NCBI GenBank assembly: GCA_027030295.1
Contig: JALVFB010000299.1
Span: 1-8,141 of the forward strand
From: Hyphomicrobiales bacterium
GTDB lineage: Bacteria; Pseudomonadota; Alphaproteobacteria; Rhizobiales; Aestuariivirgaceae
DNA: 8,141 bases
Direction of reading: 5' to 3'
In this document: positions 2 to 5,916 of the stretch, piece by piece
How positions within the stretch are numbered: position 1 is the first letter of the stretch
Layout of the letters: the number at the start of each line of letters is the position of its first letter
Made by a program: the position numbers and the translations under genes
The notes under the pieces: generated by a model
What the model saw: only the letters and a program-made list of their open reading frames with translations
Databases searched by the model: none
What the model was told of the DNA's origin: nothing

Positions 2-3000
2 GCCTATCTGACGCCGGTGCTGCGCGCTTACGTCAACCGGGTGGCGGCGGCGCTGGGGGCGGTGCCCCCCTCGTCACCCCGGCAAAAGCCGGGGTCTCGT
101 GCGGCATCTCTCCACGGGATTCCGGCTTTCGCCGGAATGACGAGTGAAGACCGGGATGACGAACATGCCTCTCCCCGGCTGTTCTTCATGATGTCCTCCG
201 GCGGGCTGACCTCGGCGGATCATTTCGCCGGCAAGGACGCCATTCTCTCCGGTCCCGCCGGCGGCGTGGTGGGCATGGTGGAAACGGCGAAACTCGCCGG
301 GTTCGAGAAAGTCATCGGCTTCGACATGGGCGGCACCAGCACCGACGTGTCGCATTTCGACGGCGAATACGAACGCAGCTTCGAGACGGAAGTGGCGGGC
401 ACGCGCCTGCGCGCGCCGATGCTGATGGTGCATACGGTGGCCGCCGGCGGCGGCTCCATCCTGAAATACGAGCAGGGGCGCTTTCAGGTGGGGCCGCAAT
501 CGGCGGGCGCCAACCCCGGCCCGGCGTCCTACCGGCGTGGCGGGCCGCTGGCGGTGACGGACGCCAACGTGCTGCTGGGGCGCATCCAGCCGAAGCACTT
601 CCCGCACGTGTTCGGGCCGAACGGCGATGAACCGCTGGACGTGAACGCGGTGCGCGCGGCGTTCACGGAATTGGCGAAACGGGTGGGCGATGGGCGCACG
701 CCGGAGGAGGTGGCGGAAGGGTTCCTGGACATCGCCACGGAGAACATGGCCAACGCCATCAAGAAGATTTCCATTCAGCGCGGGCGCGACGTGACGGAAT
801 ATCTGCTCAACTGTTTCGGCGGCGCGGGAGCGCAGTTCGCCTGTCGCATCGCCGACGCGCTGGGCATGAAGACCGTGCTCGTGCATCCGCTGGCGGGCGT
901 GCTCTCGGCCTATGGCATCGGGCTGGCCGACATCCGGGCCGAGCGCACGCGCGGCATCGAGCAGGAGCTGTCGCCCGACACGCTGAAGAGCGCGCGCAAG
1001 CTCGCCCGGCGGCTTGCGGAAGAAGCGCTGGCGGAGCTGGAAGACAAGGGCGTGGCGCATGCGGAAGCGCGGATGAAGGCACGGCTTCTCCTGCGTTATT
1101 ACGGAACCGATACGGCCCTGCCCGTGGATTTTCCCGAAACGGCCACGGCGGAGGACTTGCGCGCCGCGTTCGAGGCGGAACACGCACGATTGTTCGGCTT
1201 CATTCAGCCGGAAAAGGCGCTGGTGATGGAGGCCATCACCGTGGCGGCGGAAGGTGGCGGCGCATGCATTCCGGAAACACCGGCGGAAGAAACGGTCACG
1301 GGCGCGCCCGCGCCGCTGGAAGAGGTCGACTTTTACGCCGAGGGCACGTGGCAAAAGGCGCCGCTGTATGACCGCGGCGCCATGCGGCCCGGCCAGGAGG
1401 TGGCGGGGCCGGCGCTGATCGTGGAGCCGAACTCCACGGTGGTCGTGGAGCCGGGATGGCGGGCAGAAATGAACGCCTATGGCCACCTGCTGCTGAAACG
1501 CGAGGCCGCGGAATCCGGCGGCGCCATGCCCGCGGCGGCGCTGACGCGCACAGAGGACTTCTCGAAACCCGATCCGGTGCTGCTGGAGGTGTTCAACAAC
1601 CTGTTCATGTCCATCGCCGAGCAGATGGGCGAATCCCTGCGCCAGACGGCCAGTTCCGTGAACATCAAGGAACGGCTGGATTTCTCCTGCGCGGTGTTCG
1701 ACGCACGAGGCGGGCTGGTGGCCAACGCGCCGCACATGCCGGTGCATCTGGGCAGCATGGATCGGGCGGTGGAGGCCGTCATCCGTGCCGCGGGCGATGA
1801 CCTGAAACCTGGCGATGCCTGGGTGCTCAACGCGCCTTATGGCGGCGGCACGCATCTGCCGGACGTCACGGTCGTGTCTCCCGTGTTCATTGGAGACGAA
1901 CCGCACCCCAGGTTCTATGTGGCGGCGCGCGGACATCATGCCGACATCGGCGGTCTGGCGCCCGGTTCCATGAGTCCGGAGGCGCGCACCATTCACGAGG
2001 AAGGGGTGCTCATCGAGCCGTTCCGGCTGGTGGCGGATGGCCGCTTCCGAGAGGAGAAGATGCGCGCCATTCTCACCGCCGGGCCGTTCCCGGCGCGCAA
2101 TCCCGATCAGAACATCGCCGATCTGAAGGCGCAAGTGGCGGCCTGCGGACGCGGCATCGCCGAGCTCGAGAAGATGGTGGCGCATTTCGGCCTCGAGATG
2201 GTGGCGGCCTACATGCGTCATGTGCAGGACAACGCCGAGGAAAGCGTGCGGCAGGTGATCGACGCGCTCAAGGATGGCGCATTTGAAACCGAGCTGGACA
2301 ATGGCGCGAAAATTCGCGTCGCCATCCGCGTCGACGGGGAAAACCGGCGGGCCACGGTGGACTTCACGGGCACCTCCCCACAACTGCCGGACAACCTGAA
2401 TGCGCCGGAGCCGATCACGCGCGCCTGCGTGCTCTACGTCTTCCGCTGCATGGTGAACGCGCCCATTCCGCTCAACGCGGGTTGCCTGAAACCCATCGAC
2501 ATCATCGTGCCCGACGGCTGCCTGCTCAAGCCGAGGCCGCCGGCGGCGGTGGCGGCGGGCAACGTGGAAACCTCGCAAGTGGTGGTGGACGCGCTGTTCG
2601 CCGCCATGGGGGTGATGGCCGCCGCCCAGGGAACCATGAACAACTTCACCTTCGGCAACGCGCGACATCAGTATTACGAAACCATCTGTGGCGGCGCCGG
2701 GGCCGGCGAGGGCTGGCACGGCGAGAGCGCCATTCACACCCACATGACCAACACCCGGCTTACCGATCCGGAGGTGCTGGAGTTCCGCTATCCCGTGCTG
2801 CTGGAGCGTTTCGCGGTGCGGCGCGGCTCCGGCGGCGCCGGGCGCTGGCATGGTGGCGACGGTGTCGAGCGCATCATCCGGTTCCGCGAGGCCATGACGG
2901 CCTCGCTGCTGACCAACCGGCGCCGCGTGGCGCCCTTCGGCCTGAGCGGCGGCGGCGACGCGGCGCCGGGCGAGAATATCTTGCGCCGCGCCGACGGCTC

Positions 3001-3115
3001 ACGAGAGCGGCTGCCTTCCGCCTGCACCGTGGATGTGCGCAAGGGAGACGCCATCATCATCCGCACGCCGGGTGGCGGGGGTTTTGGCGCGGCAGACGGG
3101 GGAGGCGCGACATGA
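2..3115 (+). CDS. Fused HyuA-HyuB 5-oxoprolinase / hydantoinase-family enzyme, 5' end outside window
   Basis: The reading frame is already open at base 2 (AYLTPV...), so the real start lies upstream; 1037 residues are visible. Family members couple ATP hydrolysis to opening of a cyclic amide; for 5-oxoprolinase this is 5-oxoproline to glutamate in the cytoplasm. The HyuA part has an actin-like ATPase motif DMGGTSTDV (visible residues 108-116), then [24 protein letters not shown] and [10 protein letters not shown]. The segment [15 protein letters not shown] closely resembles OPLAH/OXP1-type 5-oxoprolinases. The HyuB part begins near residue 524 ([10 protein letters not shown]) and carries [12 protein letters not shown] (610-621) and RGHHADIGG (643-651), then ends in the typical TPGGGGFG tail. 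HyuA and HyuB are separate proteins in many bacteria but fused here, as in eukaryotic 5-oxoprolinase. Oddity: residues 24-48 are encoded by a palindromic repeat (see 70-144). The family call is firm; the exact substrate (5-oxoproline, a hydantoin or another ring) is inferred. Confidence 0.93.
70..144. repeat. 75-bp palindromic repeat element inserted in frame in the HyuA coding region
   Basis: The ends are perfect 7-bp inverted repeats, CTCGTCA (70-76) and TGACGAG (138-144). Inside are two perfect hairpins: CCCCGGC-aaaa-GCCGGGG (77-94) and ATTCCGGC-tttc-GCCGGAAT (119-138), separated by a 24-base spacer (95-118). The 75-base length is a multiple of three. Read in the enzyme's frame it encodes SPRQKPGSR...[10 protein letters not shown]. 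Read on the other strand it gives RHSGESRNP. Both peptides are familiar spurious translations of dispersed intergenic repeats in proteobacterial genomes. Family assignment rests on pattern recognition; other genomic copies cannot be seen in this window. Confidence 0.88.
132..162 (+). repeat. Direct repeat of the element's 3' end (possible second repeat remnant)
   Basis: CCGGAATGACGA (132-143), the right end of the palindromic element, recurs as CCGGGATGACGA (151-162) with a single mismatch, 19 bases downstream start to start. The second copy has no left arm, so it may be a decayed or partial second unit. Together with the flank up to about 174 it would account for the acidic, non-family residues [11 protein letters not shown] between the element and the conserved [12 protein letters not shown] strand of HyuA. 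Confidence 0.5.
3098..3105 (+). promoter_or_regulatory. Ribosome binding site of the permease gene, inside the end of the oxoprolinase gene
   Basis: GGGGGAGG lies 6 bases before the ATG at 3112 and inside the last codons of the upstream gene. It selects this ATG, which overlaps the upstream TGA as ATGA, over other in-frame starts further upstream. Those would read through unrelated out-of-frame HyuB sequence. Confidence 0.75.
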
Positions 3116-4032
3116 GCGGGCTGGAAGCCTTTTTGCTGACGGTGATCGCGGCGGCGACGCCGCTGCTGCTGGCGGCGACGGGCGAGCTGGTGGTGGAGCG
3201 CTCGGGCGTGCTGAACCTGGGCGTGGAAGGCATGATGGCCATGGGCGCGCTCACCGCGTTCGCCGTGGCCAACGTTAGCGGTTCGCCACTCGCGGGCGTG
3301 CTGGCGGGCGCTATCGCCGGGGCGGTGGTGGCGCTGCCGTTCGTGTTTCTGACACAGGCATTGGCGGCCAACCAGGTGGCTTCCGGGCTGGCGCTGGCGT
3401 TGTTCGGGCTGGGGCTATCCGGGCTGTTCGGAGAGGGTTTCGTGGGCCAGCCGGGGGTGCGGCTGGAGCGGCTGCACATTCCGGGCGTTTCCGACATTCC
3501 GTTCATCGGCCCGGTGCTGTTCGGCCATGACGTGCTGGTCTATCTCTCCTTCCTGATGACGGCGGCGGTGGCGTGGTTCCTGTTCCGCACCCGCCCCGGG
3601 CTGATCCTGCGCGCGGTGGGCACGAACCATCACGCGGCGCACGCGCTGGGCCACCCGGTGCGCCGGGTGCGCACGCTGGCCATCCTGTTCGGTGGCCTCA
3701 TGGCCGGGCTGGCCGGGGCCTATCTCTCGGTCAGCTACACGCCGCAGTGGGTGGAGGACATGACCGCCGGGCGTGGCTGGATCGCGCTGGCGCTGGTGGT
3801 GTTCGCCACCTGGCGGCCGTTGCGCGTGCTGGCCGGGGCCTACCTGTTCGGCGCGGTGTGGATCCTGGGGCTGCATGCGCAGGCCGCGGGCTTCGGCCTG
3901 CCGCCGCAGTTTCTCACCGCGTTGCCCTATCTTGCAACCATCGTCGCTTTGGTGTTGATTGCCCGCAACCGCACTTTGACTCTCACCAATACCCCGGCCA
4001 TGATCGGCCAGCCGTTCCTGCCGGAGCGCTGA
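3112..4032 (+). CDS. ABC transporter permease, BMP/nucleoside-uptake (YufQ-like, BPD_transp_2) family
   Basis: This 306-residue polytopic inner-membrane protein forms half of the channel of an ABC importer that works with BMP-type binding proteins; known relatives carry nucleosides, purines or similar small molecules. The family signature GELVVERSGVLNLGVEGMM (residues 24-42) follows the first membrane helix (about 5-23). Further hydrophobic stretches lie at about 45-55, 60-84, 90-106, near the LVYLSFLMTAAVAWFLF segment, and in three more C-terminal spans. The cytoplasmic loop RPGLILRAVGTNHHAAHALG matches the coupling loop that contacts the ATPase in this family. The start is set by the RBS at 3098-3105, and the ATG overlaps the upstream stop (ATGA), implying translational coupling. 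Length is about normal for YufQ-type permeases. The partner permease and ATPase are not in the window. Substrate unknown; purine, nucleoside or a HyuAB substrate are all possible. Confidence 0.92.
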   Translation: MSGLEAFLLTVIAAATPLLLAATGELVVERSGVLNLGVEGMMAMGALTAFAVANVSGSPLAGVLAGAIAGAVVALPFVFLTQALAANQVASGLALALFGLGLSGLFGEGFVGQPGVRLERLHIPGVSDIPFIGPVLFGHDVLVYLSFLMTAAVAWFLFRTRPGLILRAVGTNHHAAHALGHPVRRVRTLAILFGGLMAGLAGAYLSVSYTPQWVEDMTAGRGWIALALVVFATWRPLRVLAGAYLFGAVWILGLHAQAAGFGLPPQFLTALPYLATIVALVLIARNRTLTLTNTPAMIGQPFLPER

Positions 4033-4044
4033 ACATCAATGCAG

Positions 4045-4052
4045 GGAGGGAG
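4045..4052 (+). promoter_or_regulatory. Ribosome binding site that decides the start of the BMP binding protein
   Basis: GGAGGGAG ends 4 bases before the ATG at 4057. An earlier in-frame ATG at 4039 has no purine-rich site ahead of it and would put the ribosome binding site inside the coding region. The 4057 start also gives a standard signal peptide. Confidence 0.8.
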
Positions 4053-4056
4053 ATCC

Positions 4057-5127
4057 ATGCGCAGCACGCTGAAAATGACCCTTGCCGCCGCTCTCGTTCT
4101 GGGTCTTGCCGGGGCGGCACAGGCGGAAGAGAAACTCAAGGTCGGCTTCATCTACGTCGGGCCTGTCGGCGATCATGGCTGGAGTTATCAGCATGACCAG
4201 GGCCGGCAAGCCATCGAAAAGGCGCTGGGCGACAAGGTGCAGACCAGCTATCTGGAAAAGGTGCCGGAAGGCGCGGACGCGGAGCGGGCGCTGGAACGGC
4301 TGGCGCGCTCCGGCCACAAGCTCATTTTCGCCACGTCGTTCGGCTACATGGACACGGTGCTGAAGGTGGCCAAACGTCATCCGGAAGTGAAGTTCGAGCA
4401 CGCCACCGGCTACAAGCGCGCGAAAAACGTCGCCACCTATTCCTCCCGTTTCTACGAGGGCCGTTACATCATCGGGAAAATCGCGGCCAAGGTGTCGAAA
4501 AAGGGCATGGCGGGCTACATCGCCTCGTTTCCCATTCCGGAGGTGGTGCGCGGCATCAATTCCTTCATGCTGGGCGCGCAGAGCGTCAACCCGCAGTTCA
4601 GGATCAAGGTGGTGTGGGTGAACTCCTGGTATGATCCGGGCAAGGAGGCTGACGCCGCCAAGGTGCTGATCGCACAGGGGGCGGACATCCTCACCCAGCA
4701 CACCGATTCCGCCGCGCCCATGCAGGTGGCGGAGGAAAAGGGCATTCACGCCTTCGGCCAGGCTTCCGACATGATCAAGTTCGGACCGCACGCGCAGCTT
4801 ACCGCCATCATCGACAATTGGGCACCCTACTATATCCGGCGCGCCAAGGCGGTGCTCACCGGCACCTGGAAGAGCGAGGACACCTGGGGCGGGCTGGCCG
4901 CCGACATGGTGAGAATGGCGCCCTATACCAACATGCCGGATGATGTGAAGAAGATGGCCGAGGAGACGGAAGAGGCCATTCGCTCGGGCAAGCTGCACCC
5001 GTTCACCGGGCCGATCTATGATCAGGACGGCAAGCTCCGGGTGAAGAAGGGCGAGGTGATGGCCGACAAGGAACTGCTGGGCATGAACTGGTATGTGAAA
5101 GGCATCGACGACAAGCTGCCGAAGTGA
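4057..5127 (+). CDS. BMP-family ABC transporter substrate-binding protein (periplasmic)
   Basis: This 356-residue secreted binding protein delivers its ligand to the permease encoded just upstream (24-base gap). The N-terminus is a Sec signal peptide: a basic start (MRSTLK), a hydrophobic core LAAALVLGLAG, and a likely signal peptidase I cut after AQA (residue 23). No lipobox cysteine is present, unlike lipoprotein BMP members of Gram-positives and spirochetes. The mature protein opens with KVGFIYVGPVGDHGWSYQHD, the ligand-site segment of the proteobacterial BMP/PnrA-like family. It continues with a two-lobed Rossmann-type fold: FATSFGYMDTVLKVAKRHPEV, then the FEHATGYK, ASFPIPEVVRGINSF, ADILTQHTDSAAP and FGQASDM segments. 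Known relatives bind purine nucleosides or bases, so a nucleobase-like ligand is plausible; the neighbouring oxoprolinase points instead to a lactam or cyclic imide. An intrinsic terminator follows 28 bases after the stop. Family firm, ligand unresolved. Confidence 0.93.
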   Translation: MRSTLKMTLAAALVLGLAGAAQAEEKLKVGFIYVGPVGDHGWSYQHDQGRQAIEKALGDKVQTSYLEKVPEGADAERALERLARSGHKLIFATSFGYMDTVLKVAKRHPEVKFEHATGYKRAKNVATYSSRFYEGRYIIGKIAAKVSKKGMAGYIASFPIPEVVRGINSFMLGAQSVNPQFRIKVVWVNSWYDPGKEADAAKVLIAQGADILTQHTDSAAPMQVAEEKGIHAFGQASDMIKFGPHAQLTAIIDNWAPYYIRRAKAVLTGTWKSEDTWGGLAADMVRMAPYTNMPDDVKKMAEETEEAIRSGKLHPFTGPIYDQDGKLRVKKGEVMADKELLGMNWYVKGIDDKLPK

Positions 5128-5155
5128 TGCGACAGCGACAAGGATCGCTCGCAAG

Positions 5156-5189
5156 GCCCCGGCGTCGCTCGCGCCGGGGCTTTTTCTTT
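5156..5189 (+). terminator. Intrinsic (rho-independent) terminator of the oxoprolinase-transporter operon
   Basis: A perfect 9-bp GC-rich stem pairs GCCCCGGCG (5156-5164) with CGCCGGGGC (5172-5180) around a 7-base loop. It is followed directly by TTTTTCTTT. It starts 28 bases after the binding-protein stop and marks the end of the operon. Confidence 0.92.
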
Positions 5190-5397
5190 CCTGAATGGCG
5201 GATGAACGGCGCGTTCACACCGTGGCCAGAGGCCGGGTGATACCATGTTGCATAAAGAACCACCCACCGCCCCGCGCCCCCACCCAATCCCCGAATTATG
5301 AAAAACAAGGGCCTGAGGGCGCGGGACGGTTTTACCGGTCAATCTTTGGCAGCTTGGTGTGACAGCCTTGGCCCCATACGGGAAGGAGGATTTGATC
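5190..5397. other. Intergenic stretch upstream of the SH3b gene
   Basis: About 208 bases separate the operon terminator from the next start codon. The terminator implies that the downstream gene has its own promoter here. Slightly AT-richer patches occur near 5241-5257 and 5293-5306, but no hexamer pair with sensible spacing is convincing. No RNA gene or coding region is recognisable. Confidence 0.6.
5381..5389 (+). promoter_or_regulatory. Ribosome binding site of the SH3b protein gene
   Basis: GGAAGGAGG lies 8 bases before the ATG at 5398. It favours this start over the in-frame ATG at 5359, which lacks such a site and would bury the signal peptide 13 residues in. Confidence 0.8.
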
Positions 5398-5916
5398 ATG
5401 AAGGGTTGGATTTTTCCGCGAGCAGTGGCGATGGCGCTATTGATGGTCGCCTCGCCGCTGATCACCATGCCCACCCGCGCCGCCTGTGTGACCGGCGTGG
5501 CCGGTTGGGACGTGTTGTGGATGCGCGCCGGGCCGTCCGTGCGTTATCGCCGCATCGGCGGCATCGGGCCGCGCGCCTGTGGCGTGCGCGTATATTGGCG
5601 CCGTTGCGTGCGCGGCGGGCGCTGGTGCAAGGTGCGTTACCAGGGGCGCGTCGGCTGGGTGAATGCGCGGTATCTGGACGAAGGCGGTGACGATGCGGGC
5701 TGGTCGCATCCAAACGCCTGCGTGGTGGGCGTGGCGCGCGGTGATGTGCTGTGGATGCGCGCCGGGCCGTCCGTGCGTTATCGCCGCGTGGCCTCCCTGC
5801 CGCCACGCTATTGCGGCGTCATCGTCACCGACCACTGCCGTGGGAACTGGTGCCAAGTTCGCGCGCGGGAAGGCGTCGGCGGCTGGGTGAACATGCGCTA
5901 CATCCTCATGCGGTAG
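5398..5916 (+). CDS. Secreted protein with two tandem cysteine-rich SH3b-like repeats
   Basis: This 172-residue protein has a signal peptide ([21 protein letters not shown]...) with probable cleavage around TRA-A (residues 26-29). Two bacterial SH3-like units follow, about 30-93 and 108-170. Each has the pattern [14 protein letters not shown], then a CGV strand, then W-C-(K/Q)-V-R and GWVN-x-RY, typical of SH3_3/SH3b domains, which often bind peptidoglycan or act as extracytoplasmic interaction modules. Each unit has four cysteines at matching places (30, 61, 70, 77 and 108, 139, 147, 152), suggesting disulfide bonds in the periplasm. It is Arg-, Trp- and Gly-rich and likely basic. No catalytic domain is present. 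The first parts of the two units are identical at DNA level over 38 bases. The gene stands alone behind a terminator and overlaps the convergent pepN gene by 11 bases. Domain call is good; the cell-wall role is inferred from the family. Confidence 0.85.
5516..5787 (+). repeat. Internal direct repeat: 38 identical bases at 5516-5553 and 5750-5787
   Basis: The two SH3b units share a perfect 38-base match 234 bases (78 codons) apart. It encodes the [13 protein letters not shown] core. Sequence on either side has diverged at both DNA and protein level. This indicates domain duplication with local homogenisation or strong constraint. Confidence 0.9.

Follow-up and report, generated by a model that had tools for sequence, protein, structure and literature searches.

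The window analysed here is a stretch of 8,141 nt that begins at a contig start in a Hyphomicrobiales genome (G000; 1.85 Mb in 433 contigs) and opens within a fused hyuA-hyuB (hyuAB) gene, the 5′ part of which is missing, leaving only 69 bases ahead of a palindromic element (Table 1). The frame stays open across the element, from 2 to 3115, without a stop, in agreement with the preliminary description of this DNA, which had placed an in-frame, stop-free repeat inside a conserved enzyme gene and had taken the downstream permease gene as coupled to it; the start of the latter indeed overlaps the hyuAB stop. Past the substrate-binding protein gene, a GC-rich inverted repeat followed by a T-rich stretch (5155-5190) looks by eye like an intrinsic terminator, and 5359-5916 encodes a protein with two SH3-type domains that have one identical peptide in common.

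Table 1 Features of the window, with the basis on which each was assigned
Feature	Position	Strand	Basis
Fused hyuA-hyuB gene of a hydantoinase/5-oxoprolinase-type enzyme, cut off at its 5′ end by the contig start	2..3115	+	Pfam Hydantoinase_A, Hydant_A_C, Hydantoinase_B; open frame
Capture loop, 41 codons between a helix and strand LFFMMSSGG	56..178	+	Alignment of 120 homologues; loop extraction
Head-to-head dimer of CGTC-type REP units, 75 bp	70..144	+	Inverted repeats, fold, 41 genome matches
Left REP unit: tag CGTC 72-75, stem 76-83/88-95, loop 84-87, tail 96-98	72..98	+	Sequence reading; family description in PMC3733652
Right REP unit: tag CGTC 142-139, stem 138-131/126-119, loop 130-127, tail 118-116	116..142	-	Sequence reading; inverted-repeat listing
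Third, degenerate REP end, probably left over from an older element shared by congener G004	145..163	+	Direct repeat; by-eye comparison with G004
ABC permease gene; start overlaps hyuAB stop (ATGA)	3112..4032	+	Pfam BPD_transp_2; overlap read in sequence
PnrA/BMP-type substrate-binding protein gene, start possibly 4057	4039..5127	+	Pfam Bmp

The 75-bp element is a head-to-head pair of CGTC-tagged REP hairpins with the layout of CGTC-1 repeats, a known repeat kind. Its ends are the perfect 7-bp inverted repeats originally reported (CTCGTCA at 70-76, TGACGAG at 138-144), and the two 32-nt arms (70-101 and 113-144) are 81% complementary. Two perfect internal hairpins had also been claimed; both are present, although each has an 8-bp stem, including the left one that had been given as 7 bp (76-83/88-95 with loop AAAA, and 119-126/131-138 with loop TTTC). 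RNA folding of 60-154 gives -57.7 kcal/mol (z -6.6), a value equalled by 0 of 200 shuffles. Both units carry the unpaired terminal CGTC motif (72-75, and 142-139 on the minus strand), and the two tags lie outermost around a 17-nt spacer (99-115), which defines the head-to-head arrangement. According to the family description of Di Nocera et al. 2013 (PMC3733652), CGTC-1 REPs share this combination of CGTC tag, 8-bp stem, 4-nt loop and 3-nt tail, their dimers are predominantly head-to-head, and they are likewise multicopy, mostly intergenic and mainly alphaproteobacterial, with intragenic copies already reported. The same description has A-T pairs almost invariably at the first and second stem positions; in the window the first pair is A-T in both units and the second in the right unit only, and the unpaired 3-nt tails are CTC and CCC, versus mostly CCA in CGTC-1. 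An Rfam search of the window returned no family at its threshold. With regard to MITEs, filled and empty sites compared by eye showed no clear target-site duplication; the Coxiella QMITEs (as described in PMC5896051) resemble the window element in being short inverted-repeat elements that form in-frame fusions.

The insert had been described as 75 bp long. The 75-bp element is real, but the extra DNA exceeds it: the loop has 41 codons in the window versus 4 to 21 in seven congeners read without the element. Directly behind the dimer lies the degenerate third REP end, GTGAAGACCGGGATGACGA (145-163), and the DNA outward from it (GATGACGAACATGC) resembles by eye the right end of the element in G004 (AATGACGAACATGC).

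That the element is a dispersed repeat, as had been proposed, is borne out by searches with an 83-bp query: the host genome yielded 41 matches, with 40 of its 45 candidates scored, and five congeners (G003, G004, G005, G008 and G010) yielded 24 to 51 each; these are matches rather than sites, and palindromic places can count twice. The same query found no match in congeners G001, G002, G006 and G007 and one in G009. Many, though not all, of the same-genus matches span 80-90 bp, and the others comprise one unit only. Six listed copies lie less than 450 bases from a contig start of G000 (contigs C50, C78, C64, C26, C377 and C21), and the repeats may therefore break its assembly. The location of the copies relative to genes was probed by a codon score on 20 fetched stretches per genome, chosen as the best listed matches in G000, G003 and G004. 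None of the 69 other copies scored as intragenic (0/21, 0/22 and 0/26, respectively), in line with the expectation that such repeats are usually intergenic; eight of the 69 (seven in G000, one in G003) lie less than 200 bases from a stretch end. Four of four positive controls were recognised, namely the loop copies of G004 and G005, a G004 copy at the A/B linker, and the window, whose own gene is in the codon-score training set and which is thus not an independent control. The score does miss some coding copies: one of six Mesorhizobium-type controls failed (L023), and another locus (L242) fell under the cut although E2 domains flank the element on both sides, and the 0/69 is accordingly open to false negatives. 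As far as the codon-score test can tell, the examined same-genus copies are intergenic except those in hyuAB.

Related elements are present in congeners G004 and G005 as well, at the identical point of the HyuA loop. Such an element occupies this loop in three species of the genus, in three frame combinations: left and right units are each read in two frames, and the translations differ between the window, G004 and G005. In G005, whose loop translates as SSSSPRKRGSTEPHLTGGMDSRLRGNDE plus further units, an old left end stands ahead of a new dimer. Two further records extend the comparison: in P0002, a separate record with 90% identity to the query, both junctions are present and the insert is almost unchanged, and P0001, 95% identical, has a different insert in the same loop. 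An assembly artefact, which the preliminary description had named as a possible refutation, is unlikely given the near-identical insert with both junctions in P0002 and the related inserts in G004 and G005. The repeat is present but the loop is short in G003 (12 aa) and G010 (4 aa), and short loops are also found in the four congeners with no match and in G009 with its single match. The tree described below groups the three carriers with one change (support 75), and the simplest reading would be one ancestral capture in the genus followed by nested turnover. The hyuAB gene of congener G004 holds another CGTC REP, again in frame, at the linker between its HyuA and HyuB parts (L135:2521-2600).

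The position stands out well beyond the genus. In an alignment of 120 homologues, which are the best-scoring of 8000 scored rather than a random sample, this loop holds 31 of 41 inserts of at least 20 aa, the total being spread over six sites, and 20 of 23 inserts of at least 30 aa; by insert count, the best-supported view is that the HyuA loop is the most tolerant point of the enzyme. We surveyed the order with an insert-free query in 397 genomes, 222 of which match at an E-value of 1e-60 or better. Loops of at least 30 aa occur in at least 17 of these 222 genomes, in eight families: G000 and G004, plus 15 others in seven further families. This figure draws on the portion of places that the survey listed, leaves out the divergent families f4 and f33 apart from G188 (short loop), comes from a loop finder that skipped loops with stops, and takes a best E-value of 1e-110 or better to mean no long loop, twenty of the weaker-matching genomes having been searched again. 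The 15 other long-loop genes have loops of 33 to 115 aa within stop-free open frames of 1251-1336 aa. The loop pattern missed 14 loci (L103-L106, L108, L110, L112-L114, L160, L171, L173, L182 and L189); among them L182 has a 61-aa loop, which lies outside both the fold test and the tree, L160 and L173 have short loops, and L171 and L189 are uninterpretable. At L189 (G109, contig C125) the contig starts 114 bases ahead of the hyuA match, which sets in just past the loop and is preceded by stops; this marks either a broken gene or an assembly edge. Apparent extra inserts elsewhere in hyuAB, seen as split matches, occur at L139 and L109. Among 80 named loci from GTDB genomes, loops of at least 36 aa are found in Mesorhizobium (L007, L015, L023 and L029), Aminobacter (L070) and the cyanobacterium Planktothrix (L080). 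The loop is therefore filled in more than one lineage, and in other families by other repeats, whereas the preliminary description had proposed to confirm that the extra residues are unique to this lineage.

Short loops have a natural range of 4 to 27 aa, and loop length varies widely even in homologues without repeats, which would suit an ordinary variation in length by local slippage or duplication that is only repeat-like in look. Yet each of the seven hosts queried with its own loop has this DNA at other places in its genome too, with 6 to 57 further matches: 41 matches for the window, 37 for L184, 19 for Planktothrix L080, 58 for L176, 47 for L186, 7 for L174 and 22 for L190 (counts include the query's own place, a palindromic place may be counted twice, and only 40 candidates were scored per genome). 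The Planktothrix matches are short, 31-42 bases over query positions 76-122. Coding DNA adjoining the L174 loop matched itself only. These recurrences exclude ordinary length variation for the window and the six other hosts, and as a general account we regard it as extremely improbable; it is possible for L007, L175, L178, L180 and L185, which have fold z-scores above -3 and also no demonstrated copies.

The recurring loops belong to more than one kind of repeat. The L176 element also matches the genomes of L015 (55 matches), L023 (61), L029 (54) and L070 (5) and finds nothing in G000, G119 and G387, and the L184 query finds nothing in G000, G003, G085 and G353, with 3 to 10 weaker matches in each of G090, G119, G250 and G252. 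From these cross-genome nulls, three types differ in sequence: that of the window, that of Mesorhizobium and that of G387. The total of unrelated families is uncertain because B, C and D (the repeat-family names A-D being labels of this analysis) share local GC-rich similarity. In the L186 loop there are two elements, each with copies of its own in that genome: one is a palindrome of about 114 bp, the other a smaller unit (query 132-185) that on visual inspection resembles the CGTC type. The long loops are also rich in hairpins: 15 of 23 distinct long loops fold with z ≤ -3, versus 4 of 104 same-length segments of the same genes, and the mean z over 26 rows is -4.0 versus -0.43 for the control segments (three of the 26 rows are duplicates of one genome each, and the 104 segments include duplicates). 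The other eight of the 23 have z above -3, and not every long loop is a proven repeat.

How often the loop was filled can be read from a tree of 141 rows, 23 of them long-loop, which came from a fast search that left the loop out and used a single support measure. The distribution of long loops on it requires at least 14 changes, whether gains or losses, and nine of these are forced by starred branches. In the Mesorhizobium clade, an empty site of five codons (L010, L017, L021, L024 and L026) stands beside filled sites in close genes, and L155 (genome G327), which falls among the filled genes, has a loop of 11 codons whose end is like that of L023 and which is perhaps the trace of a loss. Taken at the level of sequence comparison, the HyuA loop is likely a recurrent capture site for different palindromic repeats. 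Our limited literature search, which covered few subscription papers, turned up no description of a single loop that different families had filled time and again, and no repeats in hydantoinase genes among the listed titles and opening abstract lines; as far as such limited searches show, the phenomenon appears undescribed. Di Nocera et al. note one shared insertion site, in recB of two Xanthomonas species, which differs from the filling of a single loop by several families in different phyla; a term search of the main text of their paper gave no mention of hydantoinase or oxoprolinase.

We consider it probable, with good confidence, that a head-to-head pair of CGTC-tagged REPs lies in frame in the window and that the HyuA loop captured different palindromes many times, being predicted tolerant of extra residues. 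As the likely mechanism, the repeats would insert blind to the protein. Selection would then remove any insert that causes a frameshift, introduces a stop or strikes the folded core, and stop-free multiples of three in the tolerant HyuA loop would persist and turn over, with new units landing in or beside old ones. A preference at the DNA level, whereby the insertion machinery favours the GC-rich DNA of the loop and protein tolerance is secondary, would account for the GC-rich empty sites of Mesorhizobium (e.g., GGCGCCGGCCCGCGG) and for the new units of G000 and G005 in or next to older REP sequence. However, different repeats converge on the same protein loop despite differing empty-site DNA, the same element occurs at other sites in other genes, including between domains, and the 15 long-loop genes lie in open frames of 1251-1336 aa (loops containing stops having been skipped, and G109 aside). 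Because different repeats and empty-site sequences converge on the same protein position, we hold target preference to be the less likely account and, overall, an unlikely one.

The tolerance account agrees with the state of the enzyme. Outside the loop, the three carriers compared with one another have dN/dS values of 0.15-0.18, and the twelve remaining pairs have 0.23-0.34; these carrier values place hyuAB under purifying selection, speak against a pseudogene and support the earlier statement that the element lies in a conserved enzyme. An intein was likewise rejected: the Pfam hits of the window include no splicing domain, and the loop is repeat DNA. Placement of the insert in a surface loop, also suggested at the outset, is plausible from the variation in length and the helix-to-strand position, on which the presumed exposure depends, but the available model is too poor around the loop to show it: the structure prediction of a carrier (P0005, 1170 aa, 38 rows) has a mean pLDDT of 71.9, with values below 50 at 162-187 and most of 195-316, and the loop is not placeable. 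Foldseek with this model confirms the family alone (best match 9h03, an N-methylhydantoinase), and in the solved enzyme 7hk5 the loop is short by sequence alignment. The insert is probably translated as a mostly disordered spacer. A precedent for the tolerance of in-frame palindromes may be seen in the Rickettsia guanylate kinase, which carries an in-frame Rickettsia palindromic element (RPE) that is translated and leaves the enzyme active with a changed substrate affinity (Abergel et al. 2006, as told in PMC2229807).

That change in affinity would also suit a captured element kept because it is useful, with its peptide modifying the enzyme or its mRNA hairpin slowing ribosomes. Stable hairpins are indeed common in long loops (the 15 of 23 above), and ribosomes can stall at REPs that lie no more than 15 nt from a stop codon, according to work cited in PMC5082802. 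Against usefulness, the peptides vary from lineage to lineage and in reading frame, G003 and G010 possess the repeat without the insert, and L155 has only an 11-aa loop within a filled clade; such retention for benefit is in our estimation very unlikely. Also unlikely is the broader and more speculative notion that the HyuA loop is a standing landing pad at which, across much of bacterial evolution, various selfish palindromes were turned into protein again and again, their hairpins being retained for a role at the RNA level, e.g., a ribosome pause between two folding units. In-frame palindromes have been known chiefly from Rickettsia, with isolated cases elsewhere, and the repeated filling of one loop by different repeats in many genera provides natural replicates of one experiment, through which one can ask what decides the survival of an insertion (protein tolerance, DNA target or RNA effect); the loop thereby bears on how selfish DNA becomes protein. 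Annotators and those who model structures are also warned that IPAFAGMTS, SPLEGEMSAKPTEG and similar peptides derive from repeats.

In-frame palindromes as such are already known, both as RPEs and from Di Nocera et al. The RPEs (Ogata et al. 2000, 2002) are, according to the reviews PMC10969869 and PMC2229807, palindromic repeats found like ours in frame in conserved genes; these reviews give them 105-150 bp, and the window element has 75 bp. Unlike the RPEs, different repeats here fill one loop in many genera. The preliminary description called the window sequence a different type from the Rickettsia elements, which is doubtful in light of the published classification alone: its layout fits CGTC-1, to which Di Nocera et al. 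assigned RPE-6 of R. conorii.

Among the copies examined in the window's genus, hyuAB alone was found to carry the element. The situation differs in G090, where the Mesorhizobium-type element was placed in coding frames for five of the 23 copies examined; HyuA is not the sole target in this genome, since the same element is in frame in at least five other genes. These copies (L241, L243, L244, L250 and L255) are in frame within uvrB, a uvrD-type helicase gene, xdhC, cobN and glyS, the last three encoding XdhC, CobN and the beta chain of glycyl-tRNA synthetase, and a sixth copy, at the L242 locus that scored under the cut, separates domains of a 2-oxoacid dehydrogenase E2. In all six the reading frame starts in the manner of SPLEGE. 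UvrB, a UvrD-like helicase and tRNA synthetases are also among the REP-tagged genes given by Di Nocera et al. In Mesorhizobium prunaredense, a second partial copy of the loop element, 96% identical over 52 nt, lies farther along the same hyuAB gene (L029:11906-11957).
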